Shown here piece after piece: positions 581 to 62,255 of a stretch of DNA of 64,000 bases; position 1 is the first letter of the stretch, and each line of letters begins with the position of its first letter. The DNA comes from Acidimicrobiales bacterium (lineage in GTDB: Bacteria; Actinomycetota; Acidimicrobiia; Acidimicrobiales; SHLQ01), in NCBI GenBank assembly GCA_020629635.1, contig JAHDCX010000008.1, positions 1 to 64,000 of the forward strand, written 5' to 3'. A model generated the notes under the pieces. The model was given only the letters and a program-made list of their open reading frames with translations, searched no databases and was not told the DNA's origin. The position numbers and the translations under genes are program-made.

Positions 581-1528
581 TCAGTCGAAGTCGTCGAGCG
601 GGTCGTCGAATTCGCGGAGACTCCGTTTGCCGGGTTCGCAGGTGTCCAGGGCGCGGCACCACTTGCAGGCCCAGCCCGGCACGACGCTTGCGTTGGACGG
701 GTCGTGGGCGAGCTCGATCATCCTGCGAGCTCCCGCCGTTGCGCGCCCGGCCGCGGCAAAGAGGACGTCTTCGGTCACCTTCTCGGGGTGGAAGACGCCC
801 TCGTCCAGGTAGTAGCTCGCGGCCAGACGGGGTGGCACGCCCACCCGGATGGTCTCGAGGAGGGCATAGAAGCGCAGATCGTCCAGATGCGACGGACGCT
901 TGTTGCCACTCTTGAGGTCGATCAGGACCTTGCCCGCCCGGAGCCCCCGAGCTCGGCCAAGCGTGAGATCGATCTTGCCCTGAAAGACGAGGCGGTTGTC
1001 GAACAGGGTCAGCTTCACCCGGGACTCGGTGACCGGAGTCCATTTGCGATCCAGCGGTGGCCAACACTCGGCGAACTTCGAGACGAGGTCGACACAATCG
1101 CTTCGCAATTCGGCGCGGTCGACGTCGGCCAGTTCTTGGAGGAACTCACCGAGGCTCGATGCGCCACCGAACTCGAGGCTGGCGATGGCGTTGTCGACGA
1201 GGTCGGGGGGCCAGGCTTCGCCCTTGGTGTTGATGGAGAGCTCGATCGCTTTGTGGACGACGGTGCCACGTGCGGTCGGGACGCTCCAGCCGTCCCAGTC
1301 CTGCTCGGCGAGGTAGCGGGTCTCGCAGCCGAGCACCGACGAGAGCTTGTGTTTGCTGATGAATATCTCGGTCTCGGCGCCGACCGAGTCGATCGCGTCC
1401 CGTAGGCCGCGTTCGAGTTCGCCTCGCAGCTCGTGACGCAGCTCGGCCCGACATTCCGGCCGATCGTCGTCTCCTCGGGCGCCGAGGCGGTCGACGATGT
1501 CTTGCTGGACGGGGGAGAGGTCGGTCAG
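581..1528 (-). CDS. RecB/Cas4-like PD-(D/E)XK nuclease with probable Fe-S cluster
   Basis: About 315 residues. The nuclease core is visible as H92 (VVHKAIE), D187 (GKIDLTL), D204-L-K206 (VLIDLKSG) and an FYALL helix near 220, the layout of RecB-family exonucleases. Cys68 together with Cys288, Cys291 and Cys297 gives the one-plus-three cysteine arrangement that holds a 4Fe-4S cluster in AddB and Cas4 type nucleases. The frame has no ATG, GTG or TTG near a sensible N-terminus. The best start is CTG at 1528, which overlaps the TGA of the upstream acyl-CoA ligase as CTGA and suggests translational coupling. The next usable start, a GTG inside SSVLGCE, would remove the residues before Cys68. The substrate is unknown; DNA repair or processing is an inference. 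Confidence 0.75.
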   Translation of the reverse strand: MTDLSPVQQDIVDRLGARGDDDRPECRAELRHELRGELERGLRDAIDSVGAETEIFISKHKLSSVLGCETRYLAEQDWDGWSVPTARGTVVHKAIELSINTKGEAWPPDLVDNAIASLEFGGASSLGEFLQELADVDRAELRSDCVDLVSKFAECWPPLDRKWTPVTESRVKLTLFDNRLVFQGKIDLTLGRARGLRAGKVLIDLKSGNKRPSHLDDLRFYALLETIRVGVPPRLAASYYLDEGVFHPEKVTEDVLFAAAGRATAGARRMIELAHDPSNASVVPGWACKWCRALDTCEPGKRSLREFDDPLDDFD

Positions 1529-3144
1529 GACCGGGCCTTGTCTCGTAGGAGGAACTTCTGGATCTTGCCGGTCGACGTTTTCGGCAACTCGCCGAATTCG
1601 ACCGCCTTCGGCGTCTTGAAGCCCGCCAGGCGTTCGCGACAGAAGGCGATGATCTCTTCTGCGGTGGCCTCGTGGTCCGGCTTGAGCTCGATGAACGCCA
1701 TCGGCACCTCGCCCCACTTCTCGTCGGGCTTGGCGACCACGCCAGCGGCGAGAACGGCGGGGTGCTTGTAGAGGGTGTTCTCGACCTCGACCGACGACAC
1801 GTTTTCGCCACCCGAGATGATCACGTCCTTGAGGCGATCGGTGATCTGGATGTAGCCGTTCTCGCGCCAGACGGCCGCGTCACCGGAATGGAACCAACCG
1901 CCAGCGAAGGCCTTGTCGGTCTCGGCTTGGTCCTTGTAGTAGCCCTTCATGACGGTGTTGCCCCGGATGAAGATCTCGCCGGGGGTTTCGCCGTCGCGAG
2001 GCACAGGAGTCATCGTCTCGGTGTCGAAGACGGCGAGTTCTTCGCTCATTGGCATGGCGACGCCCTGCCACGACTTCTTGACCGCACGGCCCTCATCATC
2101 GAGATCGTCCCACTCTGAGCGCCACGCGCATTGGGAGACGTGGCCGTACGTTTCGGTGAGGCCGTACACCTGCATCACGTCGAAGCCGATCGCCTCGACG
2201 GCTTGGAGGATGGCTGCGGGAGGTGGTGCGCCGGCGGTCATGGCATGGACGGTGTGGTCGAACTCGCGTCGCTCGGATTCGCTTGCGTTGACGAGCATGC
2301 CCAGCACGACCGGGGCGCCGCCGAAGTGGGTGACGCCGTGGTCGGCGATGGCGTCGAAGATGTTGGCTGCCGTGATGTCCCGAACACACACGACCGTGCC
2401 GGCGAGCAGGGCCATCGTCCACGCATGCCCCCAGCCGTTGCAGTGGAACATCGGCACCGTGTACAGGTACTTCGGTGCGGACGGCAGCTCCCAGCCGACC
2501 ACCGTGCCCATGCTCATCAGGTACGAGCCGCGGTGGTGGTACACGACCCCCTTGGGATTGCCGGTGCTGCCGGACGTGTAGTTGAGCGCCAGCGCCTGCC
2601 ATTCGTCGGTGGGCATCTCCCAGGCGTAGTCCGGATCGCCCGACGCGATCAGCTCGTCGTAGGTGAGGGACCCGAGGCGCTCGCCTCCGGGGCCAGCCGG
2701 ATCGTCGATGTCGACCACGAGAATGTCTCGATCGAGGCGCTCGACCGCCGGACCCACCGTGGCGGAGAGCGCCGTGTCAGTGATGAGGACCTTCGCGTCG
2801 GAGTGATCGAGGATGTACGCGATCGTGTCGACGTCGAGTCGCGTGTTGATCGCGTTGAGCACGCCACCTGCCGCCGGCACGCCGAAGTGGGCGTCGAAGA
2901 GTTCGGGGGTGTTGGCGGCGATGACCGACACCGTGTCGCCGATCCCGATCCCGTGGACCTTCAGCGCTGAGGCAAGTCGGGCGGCTCGCTGCCCGACCTC
3001 GGCCCACGTGTACGACCGATCCCCGTAGATGACGGCCTCTCGGCTCGGCCACAAATCGACGGTCCGCCGAAGAAACGACAGCGGCGACAACGGCACGTGG
3101 TTTGCCGGTGTCTTCGGTAGCGACTCGTAGTCCCCTGCGGCCAT
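1525..3144 (-). CDS. Acyl-CoA synthetase (AMP-forming, FadD type)
   Basis: A 539-residue ANL-superfamily enzyme that activates a carboxylic acid to its CoA thioester through an acyl-adenylate. The P-loop YTSGSTGNPKG lies near residue 186, the A5 motif YGLTETYGH near 330, the A7/A8 region GWFHSGDAAV and DRLKDVIISGGENVS near 412-440, and the catalytic lysine in PKTSTGKIQKF at the C-terminus. The length is normal for medium- or long-chain fatty acyl-CoA ligases. The substrate cannot be read from the sequence. Its stop overlaps the start proposed for the downstream nuclease. Confidence 0.9.
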   Translation of the reverse strand: MAAGDYESLPKTPANHVPLSPLSFLRRTVDLWPSREAVIYGDRSYTWAEVGQRAARLASALKVHGIGIGDTVSVIAANTPELFDAHFGVPAAGGVLNAINTRLDVDTIAYILDHSDAKVLITDTALSATVGPAVERLDRDILVVDIDDPAGPGGERLGSLTYDELIASGDPDYAWEMPTDEWQALALNYTSGSTGNPKGVVYHHRGSYLMSMGTVVGWELPSAPKYLYTVPMFHCNGWGHAWTMALLAGTVVCVRDITAANIFDAIADHGVTHFGGAPVVLGMLVNASESERREFDHTVHAMTAGAPPPAAILQAVEAIGFDVMQVYGLTETYGHVSQCAWRSEWDDLDDEGRAVKKSWQGVAMPMSEELAVFDTETMTPVPRDGETPGEIFIRGNTVMKGYYKDQAETDKAFAGGWFHSGDAAVWRENGYIQITDRLKDVIISGGENVSSVEVENTLYKHPAVLAAGVVAKPDEKWGEVPMAFIELKPDHEATAEEIIAFCRERLAGFKTPKAVEFGELPKTSTGKIQKFLLRDKARS

Positions 3145-9573: not shown

Positions 9574-10890
9574 GTGAGCAGCGAGCGAACCTACGGGATG
9601 GCCTACGTGGGCCTCATCGTGTCGCTCCTTGCGGTCGGCGTGGTTGGGTGGATCTTCCGGGATCAGGTCGAAACCTCCGTTCTCGCCGAGGTCGCGACGG
9701 CGACCACCTCCACCGCCCCGTCGAGCGTCGCACCCACGACGACGACCAGCACGACAACGACCACGTCGACAACGACCACGTCGACAACGACGACCACCAC
9801 AGCTCCCCCAACCACCACGATCCCGCTCGCCGAACGCACGCTCGAGCGGATCGACTCGGTCAGTGGCAACATCGCCCCGAAGTCCGTCGTGGCCACCCCA
9901 ACGGGGCTGTTCTTCGCCCAGAACATGATGTACCGCCACACCGTCACCGTGTACGACCAGCAAGGCGTGCTGCTCGAGACCATCAGCGACCGGGTCGATC
10001 TCGCCGAGTACGGGGTCGAGGGCGGGGTCGTCGCCCGGGGTGCGCCTGTCGAGGCAGCCTCGACCAGCGACGGCAGCAAGGTGTACGTCAGCAACTACGC
10101 GATGTACGGGCCGGGCTTCGGCCCCGAACCCGGCGACTCCTGCGCCGACACCGGATGGGACAACAGCTACCTGTACCGGGTCGACGGTGCGAGTCTCGAA
10201 ATCGACCAGGTGATCGAGGTCGGTGCCGTCCCGAAGTTCCTCGCCGTGTCTCCGGACGACCGCTGGGTGCTCGTCTCCAACTGGTGCAGTTTCGACCTGA
10301 GCATCGTCGACGCCGAGCTGGGCATCGAGGCCGGCCGCATCGACATCGGTCGCCATCCCCGCGGCATCGCGATCAGCTCCGATTCATCGACGGCGTACGT
10401 CACGGAGATGGGTGGCTCCGACATCGTCGTCGTCCCCCTCGACCAACTCGAGCGCACACGCGACGCCTTTGGCGGGGAGACCACGACCTGGAACGTCGCC
10501 GAGCTCGACGTGCAGCGACTCACCGACGTCGGCCGGGGTCCGCGCAGCGTCGTGTTGAGCCCCGACAATGCGCATCTGTACGTGACGCTCAACGGCGAGG
10601 GACAGGTGGTGAAGGTCGATGCGGGCACCGGCGAGATCCTCGAACGAGTTCGCACCGGTGATGCGCCGCGTTCGATGGCGATCTCGACCGACGGCGAGGC
10701 CCTGTACGTCGTCAACTATCTCTCCAACACCATGTCGAAGGTCCTGACCGAGACGATGGAGGAGGTCGACGAGGTGCGGACCGCCGACAAGCCGATCGGG
10801 ATCACCGTCGACCCCCGGAACGCCAACGTCTGGGTGTCGAACTACTCCGGTGTCCTGCAGATCTTCGAAGAGCAACTCGCCACGGGGTGA
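9574..10890 (+). CDS. Membrane-anchored YncE-like beta-propeller protein
   Basis: 438 residues from a GTG. One N-terminal membrane helix (MAYVGLIVSLLAVGVVGWIF) is followed by a long Thr-rich linker of about 40 residues and then a seven-bladed-type YVTN/YncE propeller. Repeated blade motifs are PKFLAVSPDDRWVLVSNW, PRGIAISSDSSTAYVTEMG, PRSVVLSPDNAHLYVT and PRSMAISTDGEALYVVNY. The propeller would sit outside the membrane. Related proteins bind ligands or scaffold complexes. No partner is evident; the next genes are the two Popeye-like proteins. Confidence 0.88.
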   Translation: MSSERTYGMAYVGLIVSLLAVGVVGWIFRDQVETSVLAEVATATTSTAPSSVAPTTTTSTTTTTSTTTTSTTTTTTAPPTTTIPLAERTLERIDSVSGNIAPKSVVATPTGLFFAQNMMYRHTVTVYDQQGVLLETISDRVDLAEYGVEGGVVARGAPVEAASTSDGSKVYVSNYAMYGPGFGPEPGDSCADTGWDNSYLYRVDGASLEIDQVIEVGAVPKFLAVSPDDRWVLVSNWCSFDLSIVDAELGIEAGRIDIGRHPRGIAISSDSSTAYVTEMGGSDIVVVPLDQLERTRDAFGGETTTWNVAELDVQRLTDVGRGPRSVVLSPDNAHLYVTLNGEGQVVKVDAGTGEILERVRTGDAPRSMAISTDGEALYVVNYLSNTMSKVLTETMEEVDEVRTADKPIGITVDPRNANVWVSNYSGVLQIFEEQLATG

Positions 10891-11011
10891 CCCGTGTCCA
10901 ACGTCACCACTCCGATGGGTGAAATCGCCCAGATCTGACCACACGGCGTCAAAACCCGCGCCGGATCGTTGCGATGGTGAACCCACCAACAACACGGGCG
11001 AGGTGGGAAAA

Positions 11012-11629
11012 GTGGATCTGTCGTTCTGGCTCCTCAACGCGGCCTATGCGGTCTACGTCGTGTCACCGGTCTTCAAGACCATGGTGAAGCTTCGAATCGT
11101 GCTCCTCCTGGCAACCATCCTGTTCATCGCCTACGGCCTGTCGAGCGGGGTCATGTCGGTGACCTGGTGGAATCTGCCCTTCGGCGCAATTCACCTCTGG
11201 CAGCTCTGGAAGATCAGCCCCTTCGGCCAGCAGGACCTCGATGCCGAGGCAGCGGGAGTCCACAGCGAGCTGTTTCCCACGCTGAGCCAGACCGACTTCG
11301 CCACGATTTGGAAGCTCGGCGAAGAGCGAATCATTTCCGTCCACGAGGAGCTGACCACACAAGGCGAACGGGTCGCCGACCTGACCCTGATTCTCGACGG
11401 CAACGCAGCCGTGGTCGACGAGGACGTGACGCTGACCTCGCTCGACCTCGTCGGCGAGATGTCGCTCTTGCTCGGCGGCGGAGCAACGAGGACCGTGTGC
11501 GCAACCTCTGAGATGCGAGTGCGAACGTGGCCCAAAGCGCACCTGGTCGCGCTCGGCGAGAAGAATCCTCACCTCAAGAGTGCGGGTTTGGTGGCCCTTG
11601 GACAGAGCCTGGCGCAAAAGGTGGCGTGA
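11012..11629 (+). CDS. Popeye-like cyclic-nucleotide-binding membrane protein (copy 1)
   Basis: 205 residues, choosing the GTG at 11012 (VDLSFWLLNAAY) because upstream codons look non-coding. Three membrane helices (LLNAAYAVYVVSPVFK, RIVLLLATILFIAYGLS and VTWWNLPFGAIHLWQLW) precede a cyclic-nucleotide-binding-type barrel with ELFPTLSQTDFATIWKLG and SLDLVGEMSLLLGG. This is the architecture of Popeye-domain proteins: helices, then the conserved WN..F..IH/N.WQL segment, then the cNMP fold. A paralogue follows. The phosphate-binding cassette is degenerate (GEMSLLLGGGATRT), so ligand binding is uncertain. Confidence 0.82.
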   Translation: MDLSFWLLNAAYAVYVVSPVFKTMVKLRIVLLLATILFIAYGLSSGVMSVTWWNLPFGAIHLWQLWKISPFGQQDLDAEAAGVHSELFPTLSQTDFATIWKLGEERIISVHEELTTQGERVADLTLILDGNAAVVDEDVTLTSLDLVGEMSLLLGGGATRTVCATSEMRVRTWPKAHLVALGEKNPHLKSAGLVALGQSLAQKVA

Positions 11630-56132: not shown

Positions 56133-56930
56133 TCATTCAGACTCGACGGCGTTGGTGACGTGACGCACGAACATGTTCGCCTCGAGCTCCTTCTGGAGCG
56201 CCATGGGTATTGGCGCCCCTCCGAGGTCGACTCGCCAGGACGGAGTCATCAGGTCGACGGAGATCTCTCCGACATCATCTGGATCACCGTCGAAGAACTC
56301 GAGGAACTCGCGATGGGTTTCCTCTTTGTCAACGAAGTAGATCCCGGGTAGGTCGTTTCCAATGAGGCCTCGAACTGCGTCCCGTCCGTCGTCTCCTGCG
56401 TCCGCGTGGAGATAGATGACGCTGAGCTTGTGTCGCGGATCAGATCGATCTGTCAATACATCGATCTCATGCTTTGTCGGCTCGGTGACGGCGCGAACCG
56501 CAGGGTGGGCCGATACTTGCGAGGAGATCGCATCGGACAGCTGGCCCTGCAAGCGGAACGAGGGTGGCATGTCCTGTGCGGTAACCGTTGGGTCCCCTGC
56601 CATCTCCGGGAAGAACTCGAGAAACTCGGCGTAGGTGTCTTCCTGGTCGACGAAGGTGATCTGGTGCTTGTCGCCGATGACCTGTTCAACCGCTCGGAAG
56701 TCTGAGGCGTTCGCGTCCGCAGTGAAGAAGATCGCTGTCTCTGACTGCTCGTCGGGCCGACCGTCCGAAACCGGTTGTGATGCGTCAGGAGGCGCCGAGT
56801 AGAGGTCTTCCGACGGAGCCGTCAGCGCGTTGCCCCGCGAGGGCGACTCCGGAGATTCGCGGGTGGTACTGCAGGAGACGGTCAGCGTGAATAAGGCGAC
56901 CGCCGCTGCCACCCCTGATCGACGTCTCAT
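56133..56930 (-). CDS. Secreted lipoprotein with two FtsX-ectodomain-like repeats
   Basis: 265 residues. A lipoprotein signal (AVALFTLTVSC, Cys20) is followed by two homologous domains (about 64-150 and 170-260). Each has the pattern of the FtsX extracellular domain: IFFTADANASDF..., FVDQEDTYAEFLEFFPEM, then MPPSFRL in the first; IYLHADAGDDG..., FVDKEETHREFLEFFDG, then MTPSWRV in the second. The FtsX ectodomain normally sits between membrane helices of a divisome ABC permease and binds cell-wall hydrolases. Here it is free-standing, duplicated and lipid-anchored, with no FtsE or FtsX in the window. Confidence 0.78.
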   Translation of the reverse strand: MRRRSGVAAAVALFTLTVSCSTTRESPESPSRGNALTAPSEDLYSAPPDASQPVSDGRPDEQSETAIFFTADANASDFRAVEQVIGDKHQITFVDQEDTYAEFLEFFPEMAGDPTVTAQDMPPSFRLQGQLSDAISSQVSAHPAVRAVTEPTKHEIDVLTDRSDPRHKLSVIYLHADAGDDGRDAVRGLIGNDLPGIYFVDKEETHREFLEFFDGDPDDVGEISVDLMTPSWRVDLGGAPIPMALQKELEANMFVRHVTNAVESE

Positions 56931-57074: not shown

Positions 57075-57897
57075 TCACCGATCTCCTGTCGCAACCTTGT
57101 GACCGGGACGGTGGTCTCCGTCGGGGACGGCGTTGATGATGGCCTCGGCTGCGGCGCCGCCGGCCTCGATCGTGTACTGCTCCGGCCAGACGACAACGAG
57201 GTTGTCGAGGTCGGTCGTGAAGCGTTGGTCGACGAGCTTCGCTGCAAGGTTCTCGAGCGCGAGAGCTCGGGTCCAGCCTTCGGGTCGATAGGGCTCGAAT
57301 GCGGCGCCGATTGCCTGTGGAGAGAGATTGGCCTCTTCGAGTGCGAGCCACATGTCGAACAGATCGCGGCCCTTTCTGCGTTGGTACAGCGCTCGGATCT
57401 TGGTGGCGACGAGCTCCTCGACTGCGAAGGACTTCACTTCGGCGCTTCCCTCGAACCAGGGTGAGCTGATCGCGAACGGCACCCTCGTGGTGGGGCGAGC
57501 GGGCGACCGTTCGTAGGTGTTCATCTCGATCTTGATCCTCATCCGCGCTCCGTTGAGGAAGGTCGAGTCGAGCCTGGCCTTGGGGTGACGCCTGACGTCT
57601 GTCTGCACTCGATCGAAGCCGACAGCGTCGGCCACTTCCCGAAGCGCATCGAGGACATCACCGACCCCGCCGGCTGAGCGACGGACGTAGTCGAGGTCCT
57701 CGCTGTAGCGCCATGGCCGGCCGAGCCACAGTTGGTGGAAGCACGTGCCACCTCGGAACACGAGCTCGTCACCGAGGAGGGGATGGTTCGCGATCTCGAC
57801 GATGAGGCGAGACAAGTACGAGGTCTTGTTCGACCTGCTCGTCCGTGCTCCAGGGCGCGAACTGTTGCCAGTGGGCCAGGTCGGATGCTGCGATCAC
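57075..57897 (-). pseudogene. AbiEii-type nucleotidyltransferase toxin, frameshifted
   Basis: The toxin half of an AbiE system. The core is FRGGTCFHQLWLGRPWRYSE then DLDYV, the DNA-polymerase-beta-type GGTxxxR...SxDxD motif. The C-terminal frame opens only from a TTG at 57815. Upstream, a GTG at 57897 overlaps the stop of the antitoxin gene (GTGA) and encodes the family N-terminus (DLAHWQQFAPWSTDEQVEQD) in another frame, up to about 57813. One extra base near 57812 separates the two. If real, toxin activity is lost; a sequencing error is the alternative. Confidence 0.8.
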
Positions 57898-58709
57898 AGG
57901 TCGTGCTCGACGTCGATATTGACGATGATTCGCCAGCGGTTGTCACGTTCGCCAGCGCCGCTGCCGGGTGACAAGGCCCGGAAACGGCCTTCCCTGACGG
58001 TCGCGTTCAGCGGGTCGGTGTCGATCGGGAGATGCTCCTCGCTCGACATGAAGTCGATGAGGTGGCCAGCCCGTTGCGCGACCGCTGTGGGGTAGAAGGC
58101 CGCGACATCGGCGAGCGAAGCGGGGTCGAGCATGTCGTCGTGGAGGAGATCTCCGACGATCGTGGCGACGTTGGAGAGTCCGGCGGCACGTTGGGGTGCC
58201 TCAACCAGGTCGAACACAGTGACTTCGGGGGAGGAGATCCAGATCCGCCCGGTCGGGACCGTGTGCCGCAACCGTGGCCGTTCGGCAGCGTCGGCCCGTT
58301 GGATGAACTGGAGTCGGGTACGCCCGATGGTTCGGTCGCGAAGTCGAGCCGGAGTGACGACTTGGAAGACCATGGGCGCCTGATGTGAGGCGCCGTGAAT
58401 GGCGGCGGCTGATAGCAGTCCCACGTAGTAGTCATGGCCGATGTGGGTCATCATCTGGTCGATGTAGTGGCTTCCAGGGGGTGCCCCAGCCGCCCGGTAC
58501 TCGGGCGGGACCGGAACCCACCCTCCTTTGGTGACCGATACGAACTTGGCCGCTTGGCGTGCTCGCCTGAGGCTTCGAGGGACGGCGTTGACGTCGACAC
58601 CCAGGCGTGCGGAGGCTTCCTCACTGGTGATGAAGTGTTGGCCACGACCCATGAGCTCATCGGCGAGCTGGCCCGGCGCAACGGTGGCGACGACTTTCAT
58701 GCCGTCCAA
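57894..58709 (-). CDS. AbiEi antitoxin-like regulator
   Basis: 271 residues; the start could also be the second ATG at 58700 (MKVVATVAPG). An N-terminal winged helix (HFITSEEASARLGVDVNAVP, then RSLRRARQAAKFVSV) precedes the AbiEi C-terminal domain (YYVGLLSAAAIHGASHQAPM, TVFDLVEAPQRAAG). AbiEi represses its own operon and neutralises AbiEii. An inverted repeat sits right at its promoter. The toxin gene downstream is frameshifted, so the antitoxin may persist alone. Confidence 0.9.
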   Translation of the reverse strand: MDGMKVVATVAPGQLADELMGRGQHFITSEEASARLGVDVNAVPRSLRRARQAAKFVSVTKGGWVPVPPEYRAAGAPPGSHYIDQMMTHIGHDYYVGLLSAAAIHGASHQAPMVFQVVTPARLRDRTIGRTRLQFIQRADAAERPRLRHTVPTGRIWISSPEVTVFDLVEAPQRAAGLSNVATIVGDLLHDDMLDPASLADVAAFYPTAVAQRAGHLIDFMSSEEHLPIDTDPLNATVREGRFRALSPGSGAGERDNRWRIIVNIDVEHDL

Positions 58710-59518: not shown

Positions 59519-60268
59519 TCACTCGCCGATCCGGTCGAGCGCAGCCCGCACCCGAGCAAGGCAGTCGTCGGGCGAGTCAAGGTCGGAGGCTTGGTGCCCG
59601 AGCTCCGTTTGCCACGACGAGGCGACCGAGCGGGGAACGGTGCGCTCGAGATTGGCGGCCCCGGGAGTGAATCCGGCGATCGGGCGCACGAGGGTGACTG
59701 CAGTTTCGTCAATGTGTCCGGCGTCGGCGAGTGCTGCGAGGTCGTAGAGGTCGCGAGGGGTGTGGCGGTCGAACCAGGCCATGAGCTTCATCGCGGCGAA
59801 GCCGCTGGGCGTCGGGACTCTGAGATCGACCGAGGGCGAGAGGTCCGAGTAGCGGAGCTGCACAGGCTCGATGGTGAAGGGAATCGCCTGCCATTCCTGC
59901 CTTCGGGCGAATTGCACCTTGACCTCGAGGTCGTCGGCGGTGAGATTCCACGTTTCGACCTGGTGCTGGGAGCCGAGGCCGGTCCAGGTGAGGTTCGGGA
60001 ACTCGCGACGGAGCCGTCTGGTGACGTGAGTTCGGAGACCGGCGCCGTCGGTGGGCGAGTCGACGAGCAGGTCGATGTCTTCGGACAGGCGGAGGTCGGG
60101 CAGCCACGTGCGGCAGAGCGCTGTGCCGCCGAAGAATGTGACGCGGTTGCTGTCGGGCCAGTCGGCGATTGCGGCGAGTACGTGGCTGATGAGGTGGTCG
60201 CGGATGATCTGGCTATCTGGCGCGCCGAACCGCCCGGCGACAGCTTCGATCTCGGCGCGGTCGATCAT
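59519..60268 (-). CDS. AbiEii-like nucleotidyltransferase toxin (second locus)
   Basis: 249 residues. Nucleotidyltransferase motif FFGGTALCRTWLPDLRLSED, then IDLLVD (GGTALxR...SEDID), and the C-terminal DLYDLAAL segment typical of AbiEii. The N-terminal helix DSQIIRDHLISHVLAAI is intact, so this copy is complete. Coupled to its antitoxin by ATGA. It should be a bacteriostatic GTP-using toxin of a type IV toxin-antitoxin system. Confidence 0.88.
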   Translation of the reverse strand: MIDRAEIEAVAGRFGAPDSQIIRDHLISHVLAAIADWPDSNRVTFFGGTALCRTWLPDLRLSEDIDLLVDSPTDGAGLRTHVTRRLRREFPNLTWTGLGSQHQVETWNLTADDLEVKVQFARRQEWQAIPFTIEPVQLRYSDLSPSVDLRVPTPSGFAAMKLMAWFDRHTPRDLYDLAALADAGHIDETAVTLVRPIAGFTPGAANLERTVPRSVASSWQTELGHQASDLDSPDDCLARVRAALDRIGE

Positions 60269-60897
60269 GGCCGGGGTCGACCGAGCATCGTGCGAAGCCT
60301 GTGCAGCGTCTTGATGCCTCGTGTCGACTCAGCGATCTCGTCGATCAAATCCCAGTCGATCCGGTCGGCGAGTCGGCGGATCATCTCGGTTCGGGCCTCG
60401 TCAGTGATGTTCCAGGCCGGTCGGTTACGACAGAGATCGAGCGCAGTGTGCTCGATGCTGGTCGCCCAACCGGGGCCGAGGTCTGTCTCGACGCGGACGG
60501 TGTCCAGCTTGTCGATGTTTCGCTCGACGAATCGGATCTCGCCGAGGATTGTCTGGCGTGGTCGGCGTTGGTCGGGCACGGCGACGAATGCGGTGCCGAG
60601 CGCACGGGGGTAGCAGCGGTGGGCGCGAGCTGCCGACGGTCCCACGAGCGCTACCTCGTCAGGCGAGTGCAGTGCCGCCGCGATGCCGAGAGCGGCCCCC
60701 TCGATCGAGGGCCTCCACGTGGTCTGGGCACCGCGCCGGTCTTCGGGCACCAGCGCGTAGAAGCCCTTCGTGAGGGCGAGCACCGTGCCGACTTCGGCCA
60801 GTCGCTGGAGTTCGGCATCGGGACGGTCGAGCGCGAACGATCTCGTTCGGCCGACCCGAAGCTGACGCCTCGCCAGCTGTTCGACAACTTGCGTCAT
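60265..60897 (-). CDS. AbiEi-like antitoxin (second locus)
   Basis: 210 residues. An N-terminal wHTH-like part (LAEVGTVLALTKGFYALVPE) is followed by an AbiEi domain (ALGIAAALHSPDEVALVGPS, ATSIEHTALDLCRNRP). Less similar to the first antitoxin than expected for a recent duplicate, so the two loci are separate acquisitions. The inverted repeat upstream is a good autoregulatory operator. Confidence 0.87.
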   Translation of the reverse strand: MTQVVEQLARRQLRVGRTRSFALDRPDAELQRLAEVGTVLALTKGFYALVPEDRRGAQTTWRPSIEGAALGIAAALHSPDEVALVGPSAARAHRCYPRALGTAFVAVPDQRRPRQTILGEIRFVERNIDKLDTVRVETDLGPGWATSIEHTALDLCRNRPAWNITDEARTEMIRRLADRIDWDLIDEIAESTRGIKTLHRLRTMLGRPRP

Positions 60898-61055: not shown

Positions 61056-62255
61056 CTACTCAGGTGCGCCAAGCCAATGGCTTTCTCGTTCGACCGCTCC
61101 CGACCCGCAGCTCACGACCCGTAACTCGTCGGCTTCGAGCTCGAAGATCGCGCGTTGACCGAACCGCCGCGCCGCCTCGACTGCCTCTGAGCGCGTGAGT
61201 CCGGCGACGGCGAACGATCGCTCTACCCACGATCCCGATGATGAGCCACACTCGACTTCCTCGAGCGCCTCGGCAACTTCACCAAGGTGAAACCGCAGCC
61301 GCTCGTTCGCAAGGTCATTGGCGGACCGGGAGCGCGGCCGCCCGTTCGGGTTATGCGCGGTGATGACGTGCACCAGCCTGCTGCCCGTGCCGCTGAGTAG
61401 CGAGACCGGGGTTGTCGCAAGCGGAGTGATCTCGGTCTCGGCGTAGGCGTCCCAGACGAACGGACTGTGGGCGACGAGCGCCCATGCTCGCTCGGCGAGG
61501 TCCTCAACGACGCCGATGGTCCGCAAGGTCTCGTCGAAGTCTTCGTGAGCGCCGATGACGTTACCGCCATGCGCAAGTGGGTTGCGGAGCTTCTCGATTC
61601 GCTTCCTGACCTTGTCGGCCTGATTGGGAGAAACAATGGCCAGGGCTTCGCCGAGGGGTGAAATACGACCGACGAGATCGAAGCGGTCGATCAGGTCCAG
61701 GCACTCGAGCTCTGTGATCTCAGCGTTCGCGCGACGTGCCTTCTCAAACCGTTCGAGGAGCTTCCTCCGGCGGCCATCCTGCATTTCGTCCAGCCAAGAG
61801 CCGTGGGAGTAGGTAGCGATCAGCTCGGTCAAGGCCATCTCCAGCGAGACGACGAGGCCGAGCACCGCCATCGATACCGGTGGCAGCTGCAGATCTGCCC
61901 TCGTCACGATGCCCTGGATGCCATCTCCATCGAGCACGTAGAAGTGATCCCTCTCCGCGAACCGGGGCAGGAGGCTGGCAAGTCCGGTCGATCCGGCGAC
62001 CACCTCCTCGACCTTGATCGGCTCGGCGACCGAATCGAGGGTGCCTGCTGCGTCGCGAAGGTCGGGAAGCCGGACCGACCGTCGGATGGGTGTCTCGGCC
62101 AGAGGTGCCTGGTCGATGTCGAGGATTTCCAGCTCTCTTCTCGCCCGGTCGACATCGACGTCAGGGTCCAAGCAAAAGAGGTCGCTGGTGGTGATCTGCC
62201 GCACGGTGATGCCGGACTGGAGCAACCTCCTCGTGGCCTGATCCTCAGCTCGCAT
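61056..62255 (-). CDS. CBS-HEPN-DUF3293 fusion protein
   Basis: 399 residues. Part 1 (about 20-125) is a CBS-pair-like sensor (ITTSDLFCLDPDVDVDRARR, YVLDGDGIQGIVTRADLQLP). Part 2 (about 128-262) is all-helical with R224-N-P-L-A-H229, the HEPN ribonuclease motif Rx4H (KLRNPLAHGGNV). Part 3 (about 290-395) resembles DUF3293 (HVITAHNPNGRP, WVERSFAVAGLTRSEAVEAA, RRFGQRAIFELEAD). I do not know this combination. A nucleotide-sensing CBS unit controlling a HEPN RNase would be a defence or stress effector. It sits 32 bases downstream of a restriction-like helicase and may be cotranscribed with it. Confidence 0.68.
   Translation of the reverse strand: MRAEDQATRRLLQSGITVRQITTSDLFCLDPDVDVDRARRELEILDIDQAPLAETPIRRSVRLPDLRDAAGTLDSVAEPIKVEEVVAGSTGLASLLPRFAERDHFYVLDGDGIQGIVTRADLQLPPVSMAVLGLVVSLEMALTELIATYSHGSWLDEMQDGRRRKLLERFEKARRANAEITELECLDLIDRFDLVGRISPLGEALAIVSPNQADKVRKRIEKLRNPLAHGGNVIGAHEDFDETLRTIGVVEDLAERAWALVAHSPFVWDAYAETEITPLATTPVSLLSGTGSRLVHVITAHNPNGRPRSRSANDLANERLRFHLGEVAEALEEVECGSSSGSWVERSFAVAGLTRSEAVEAARRFGQRAIFELEADELRVVSCGSGAVERESHWLGAPE

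Follow-up and report, generated by a model that had tools for sequence, protein, structure and literature searches.

The genome of an uncultured actinobacterium of the order Acidimicrobiales encodes a predicted lipoprotein that carries two full FtsX extracellular domains (ECDs) in one chain, apart from the FtsX permease. The gene lies in the window (the whole stretch of DNA analysed, 64,000 nucleotides), and its parts are as follows.

56133..56930, minus strand: lipoprotein gene, 265 amino acids, two FtsX ECDs (open reading frame, FtsX-only HMM, Pfam)
56871..56930, minus strand: predicted signal peptide with lipobox LTVS-C, residues 1–20 (sequence; lipoboxes of the orthologues; LspA)
56871-56873, minus strand: codon of the predicted lipidation site, Cys20 (sequence)
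56748..56870, minus strand: disordered tether, residues 21–61 (low pLDDT in the model)
56475..56747, minus strand: FtsX ECD repeat 1, residues 62–152 (Pfam, hhalign, FtsX-only HMM, fold)
56433..56474, minus strand: linker between the repeats, residues 153–166, 14 residues long (model, HMM)
56145..56432, minus strand: FtsX ECD repeat 2, residues 167–262 (hhalign, FtsX-only HMM, fold)

We hypothesize, at a probability of about 0.4, that the protein is a lipid-anchored clamp of two ECDs that binds an FtsX-type helical partner independently of ATP. The partner would probably be an M23-type wall hydrolase or a regulator, which the clamp recruits, activates or withholds from FtsEX. In the literature searched, every FtsX ECD belongs to an ATP-driven complex that times wall-cutting enzymes; a natural two-ECD protein that works without ATP would pose the question of whether grip on a partner suffices for regulation. 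As a putative single-chain stand-in for the FtsX dimer, the tandem ECD could be purified and its structure solved with the partner.

Two FtsX extracellular domains in a predicted lipoprotein

The first-pass annotation had described two repeats with the FtsX extracellular pattern, and the PPSFRL and TPSWRV motifs that it pointed to are both present in the 265-residue reading frame. The Pfam model FtsX_ECD (PF18075) recognizes repeat 1 at E=1.6e-4 and 22.6 bits, slightly below the gathering score of 23.5 bits, which is a curated threshold and not a biological feature; the two orthologues described below exceed it, at 29.5 bits (best on repeat 2) and 33.5 bits (best on repeat 1). Because the Pfam score was marginal, we built a held-out HMM on ECDs taken only from genuine FtsX permeases (at least three transmembrane (TM) helices), leaving detached ECDs out of the training set. 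This FtsX-only HMM bears out the annotation, matching repeat 1 with 40.3 bits (i-E 4e-11; model positions 3–97) and repeat 2 with 35.1 bits (i-E 1.6e-9; positions 5–99), and it also detects both repeats in both orthologues. The top score of 2000 shuffled sequences was about 10–11 bits.

The annotation had named the lack of a profile match, or a match confined to acidic stretches, as grounds for giving up the FtsX assignment. The assignment survived profile–profile comparison, in which repeat 1 matches the FtsX ECD with a probability of 99.2 over 92 columns and repeat 2 with 99.3 over 91 columns; matches of this length at 99% for each repeat are no artefact of acidic stretches. The repeats also resemble one another (99.4% in profile–profile comparison; Smith–Waterman score 104, against a shuffled mean of 24 and maximum of 49). 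Searching the PDB by sequence alone gave no FtsX match, whereas the structure search did find FtsX. A match to the type VI secretion protein TssF (E 0.078) was dismissed as chance.

Modelled alone with AlphaFold, repeat 1 reaches a pLDDT of 91.5, and each of the top ten Foldseek matches in the PDB is an FtsX ECD or FtsEX. It superimposes on the Mtb FtsX ECD (4n8n_A) with Z 10.5 and rmsd 2.2 over 85 residues. Unrelated ferredoxin-like folds come next, with Z up to 9.3 and fewer residues aligned, so the FtsX ECD call needs sequence and fold jointly. The full-length model, based on the three orthologues, is of moderate quality (pLDDT 65.8) with a disordered tether; FtsX ECDs rank first in a Foldseek search with it, but none reaches E 0.001. 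Its second repeat matches 4n8n_A with Z 9.5 and rmsd 3.3 over 92 residues. Strands and helices follow the same order in both repeats of this model, and the models of repeats 1 and 2 both match the FtsX ECD fold with its upper and lower lobes.

A lipobox, LTVS-C20, was read by eye in the window protein, as were the lipoboxes of both orthologues. The same genome encodes LspA (PF01252, 102 bits), which makes lipoprotein processing plausible, and we predict from the sequence that the protein is anchored to the membrane by lipid. Hydropathy and the model reveal no TM helix in it, only the N-terminal signal peptide. The annotation's view of a lipoprotein separate from the permease thus holds as a prediction: the genome has one ordinary FtsX, with four TM helices, encoded on another contig (C31) directly behind ftsE.

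The lipoprotein shares domain fold and sequence family with FtsX (PF18075; PDB 4n8n, 6tpi and 6hfx), including the lower-lobe motif, and retains most of the ligand-gripping positions. The two differ in architecture: whereas FtsX places its ECD between TM1 and TM2 of four TM helices and its gene adjoins ftsE, the lipoprotein has no TM helices, has a duplicated ECD in one chain with a lipobox anchor, and is encoded away from ftsE.

Orthologues and descent

Orthologues occur in two of the ten other genomes of the genus (CALHXU010000207.1 and JAHDEJ010000009.1), at 43% and 37% identity to the window protein. Its distribution is patchy: the gene is present in 3 of the 11 genomes of the genus, several of which are incomplete. 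All three proteins have a lipobox and both repeats, and the invariant EF..F and PPS/PSWR motifs are kept across them. When a full-length profile was searched against 297 genomes of the order, these three genomes alone exceeded 100 bits and no other came near.

The neighbourhoods of the three genes differ, with no synteny and no linked hydrolase or partner gene. In JAHDEJ, a cell-wall cluster of FHA, phosphatase, RodA-FtsW, PBP and kinase genes, identified by eye, begins some 0.8 kb downstream of the orthologue and runs in the same direction (L033:214-8669), a suggestive arrangement but a single case. This orthologue is also flanked by two opposite-strand reading frames that share the start MKGSRLTFT (L033:7402-7854 and 10789-11211) and may be a repeat element.

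A tree of 85 ECDs over 100 columns, with many long branches, groups the detached ECDs of the order and the lipoprotein repeats apart from FtsX (support 94/97). In this tree, repeat 2 of the three lipoproteins forms a clade (100/97), so the two-repeat form probably arose before the three species diverged. A single clade of all six repeats is neither shown nor rejected (AU test, p 0.418). The best tree does not show the repeats arising recently from the FtsX of the genus itself, although a grouping of the two is not rejected by the AU test (p-AU 0.256). The grouping of the lipoprotein repeats with the sigma-linked ECDs described below may reflect long-branch attraction.

Detached FtsX domains across the order

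The first-pass annotation had described a free-standing lipoprotein. Its detachment from the permease stands, but it is not alone: it is one of a scattered set in the order. We searched a profile of detached ECDs over 396 genomes of the order and then read the loci. About 24 of these genomes (6%) have an FtsX ECD outside FtsX. They comprise 23 of the 24 genomes that gave multiple matches, plus one (G564) in which the sole match is detached. G434 was left out of the count because its second match reads as another permease, apparently a second FtsX-like protein with four TM helices (L105:692-3358).

The detached ECDs fall into two classes: lipoproteins, and single-pass proteins that begin with a short cytoplasmic segment. 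Fifteen single-pass genes (L035, L057, L059, L101, L102, L104, L107, L108, L180, L182, L187, L189, L190, L192 and L195) lie immediately behind an ECF sigma-factor gene of the same strand, either overlapping or adjoining it; Pfam confirms eight of these sigma genes, and the rest were assigned with a home-made sigma profile at lower scores. Two other single-pass genes (L168 and L193) lack a sigma gene within reach, two further cases have one on the other side, and one sigma-linked case comes from outside the order (L095). The sigma-linked proteins may regulate their sigma factors through a sensor domain of the FtsX type. They suggest that, in this little-studied bacterial group, transcription may respond to the state of the division wall. 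One of them, L057, ends in a DUF6636 region at its C terminus, and in G445 (L104:230-1348 and 1509-3044) a single ECF sigma gene is flanked by two detached-ECD genes.

Eight proteins make up the lipoprotein class: the window protein, its two orthologues, L106, L109, L177, L183 and L191. No sigma gene was found beside any of the eight in the flanks examined (about 0.7–1.5 kb upstream), and the window's own genome has no sigma-linked ECD at E<=1e-5. The window protein and the sigma-linked proteins (for example, L035, L057, L059, L102 and L182) have a detached extracellular FtsX ECD in common, but the latter also possess a short N-terminal segment in the cytoplasm, a TM helix and an overlapping or abutting ECF sigma gene upstream, all of which the lipoprotein lacks. 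Its resemblance to the other five ECD lipoproteins extends to the lipobox, the ECD or ECDs and the sigma-free flanks; by full-length score, these are not its orthologues.

Tandem ECDs recur in both classes. The lipoprotein L177 (G685) has two Pfam stretches (73.6 bits), as does the sigma-linked L182 (G544; 109.2 bits), which thus resembles the window protein in having two ECDs. L109 has one ECD and a degenerate second, so that its tandem is more weakly supported, and L106, L183 and L191 have a single ECD each. The plasmid collection that we searched gave no detached-ECD match. Our literature search, to which subscription journals were mostly closed, found nothing on FtsX ECDs outside FtsX. The detached ECDs thus seem to be an undescribed, scattered group in which a known domain has entered new architectures.

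Ligand-gripping positions and candidate partners

In Mtb FtsX, mutation of the phenylalanine cluster F61/F110/F113/F122 abolishes RipC binding, and two ECDs lock RipC in an asymmetric grip (PMC10694151). The EnvC complex likewise contains two ECDs and one EnvC (PMC11627006). The equivalents of the four Mtb positions are F, F, M and M in repeat 1 of the window protein and Y, F, D and M in repeat 2; in the FtsX proteins that we collected, they are mostly F/W/Y, F, L/M and L/M. All six repeats of the three proteins keep an aromatic residue at the F61 and F110 equivalents and Met or Leu at the F122 equivalent, as does the FtsX of the order. The F113 equivalent varies (V, a gap and M in repeat 1; Q, Q and D in repeat 2). 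Because it is polar in every repeat 2, the two ECDs are not equivalent, which by analogy may fit an asymmetric grip such as that on RipC.

The RipC-like hydrolase proposed in the first-pass annotation is a doubtful partner, as the NlpC/P60 domain (PF00877) has no match in the window genome, nor in the two genomes that carry the orthologues. The window genome has five M23 domains, in proteins with at most a short helical segment and no long RipC-like coiled coil (judged by eye and a crude score). In G544 (L112:1495-3859), an M23 peptidase gene (479 amino acids, 113.9 bits) directly follows ftsE-ftsX, and its product is a candidate FtsX partner in the order. With no NlpC/P60 match, five M23 domains and the gene order in G544, an M23-type partner is the stronger candidate.

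Proposed function

In the reading that we favour, lipid and a flexible tether would hold two FtsX ECDs in one chain at the outer surface of the cell membrane. As the FtsX dimer grips one coiled-coil partner (EnvC or RipC) with two ECDs, the tandem lipoprotein would mimic that pair. Having no TM helices, it would operate without FtsE and ATP, binding a helical partner as FtsX does, and the bound partner would be recruited, activated or kept from FtsEX. Because it has neither a TM helix nor an ATPase, the lipoprotein alone cannot relay a cytoplasmic signal, which leaves binding, recruitment, activation and sequestration. That a pair of ECDs can act without ATP in principle is suggested by the 2:1 EnvC complex and by a report that the isolated Mtb ECD is enough to activate RipC in vitro (Mavrici 2014, cited in PMC10694151). 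Membrane anchoring, the 2:1 grip, the identity of the partner and whether that partner is activated or sequestered are our inferences. The first-pass idea of a decoy or an alternative hydrolase activator at the septum is plausible.

This clamp reading draws on the full-length ECDs, the retained gripping positions, the recurrence of tandems (L177 and L182) and the M23 gene behind ftsX in G544. Counting against it are the lack of a linked partner gene, the loss of the F113-equivalent hydrophobic residue in repeat 2, the patchiness of the gene and the absence of a long coiled coil from the M23 proteins. The lipoprotein's nearest relatives in the tree, the sigma-linked ECDs (94/97), hint at ligand sensing over hydrolase control, although this tree is short and rich in long branches.

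SweC/SweD and SteA/SteB are accessory envelope proteins that modulate FtsEX–hydrolase pairs. From descriptions alone, the lipoprotein can be likened to them as a putative accessory modulator.

Alternatively, and somewhat improbably in our view, the lipoprotein could be a stress-sensing accessory, the sigma-free arm of a family of detached ECDs for sensing an envelope ligand; it would capture or present a ligand that the sigma-linked members signal to their ECF sigma factor. The sigma neighbours of 15 single-pass genes in the order and one outside it agree with such a role, as does the grouping of the repeats with sigma-linked ECDs and not with FtsX (94/97). Nevertheless, none of the eight lipoprotein genes adjoins a sigma gene in the flanks examined, the window genome has no sigma-linked ECD within the threshold given above, and the grouping may be an effect of long branches; the AU test is compatible with the repeats joining the FtsX of their genus.

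The tandem ECD might instead compete with FtsX for its partner and damp septal hydrolysis without ever activating it, a decoy role that we consider unlikely. Most gripping positions are kept in a protein that has no link to ATP, and activation of RipC by Mtb FtsEX depends on ATP hydrolysis (PMC10694151); an ECD that works without ATP might therefore bind its partner and leave it inactive. The reported activity of the isolated Mtb ECD on RipC, as cited in that paper, argues against inhibition alone, as does the lack of linkage to division genes in the window genome. It is very unlikely that the protein is a fragment duplicated from the FtsX of its genus, without settled function and being lost: the patchy distribution, the unconserved neighbourhood and the unrejected origin from that FtsX (p-AU 0.256) would suit this, but orthologues at 37–43% identity to the window protein or less retain the lipobox, both repeats and the EF..F and PPS/PSWR motifs, and the repeat-2 clade (100/97) points to a two-repeat form that predates the species split and was kept.

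If the clamp reading is extended to the whole set of detached ECDs, a broader scenario emerges that we regard as rather doubtful. The Acidimicrobiales may repeatedly have freed and redeployed the ligand-binding domain of FtsX, both as tandem clamps on a lipid anchor, imitating the FtsX dimer without ATP, and as sensors in membrane regulators of ECF sigma factors. The cell could then both buffer the engagement of a wall hydrolase (or its regulator) at the septum and signal it to the transcription machinery.

Neighbouring genes

The lipoprotein gene is surrounded by AbiE-type genes and an SRPBCC gene, and no genetic linkage to division genes was found in the window genome. It overlaps a downstream reading frame of 138 amino acids through an ATGA. 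We rejected a meaningful operon of the two, because the 138-residue frame is separately conserved in most genomes of the genus, away from ECD genes, and its homologues seem to begin at an internal MAFGQ. Two AbiEii/AbiEi pairs, resembling type IV toxin–antitoxin systems, occupy positions 57075-58709 and 59519-60897 of the window, one of them directly upstream of the lipoprotein gene. Farther along, at 61056-62255, a single protein combines a CBS domain with DUF3293.
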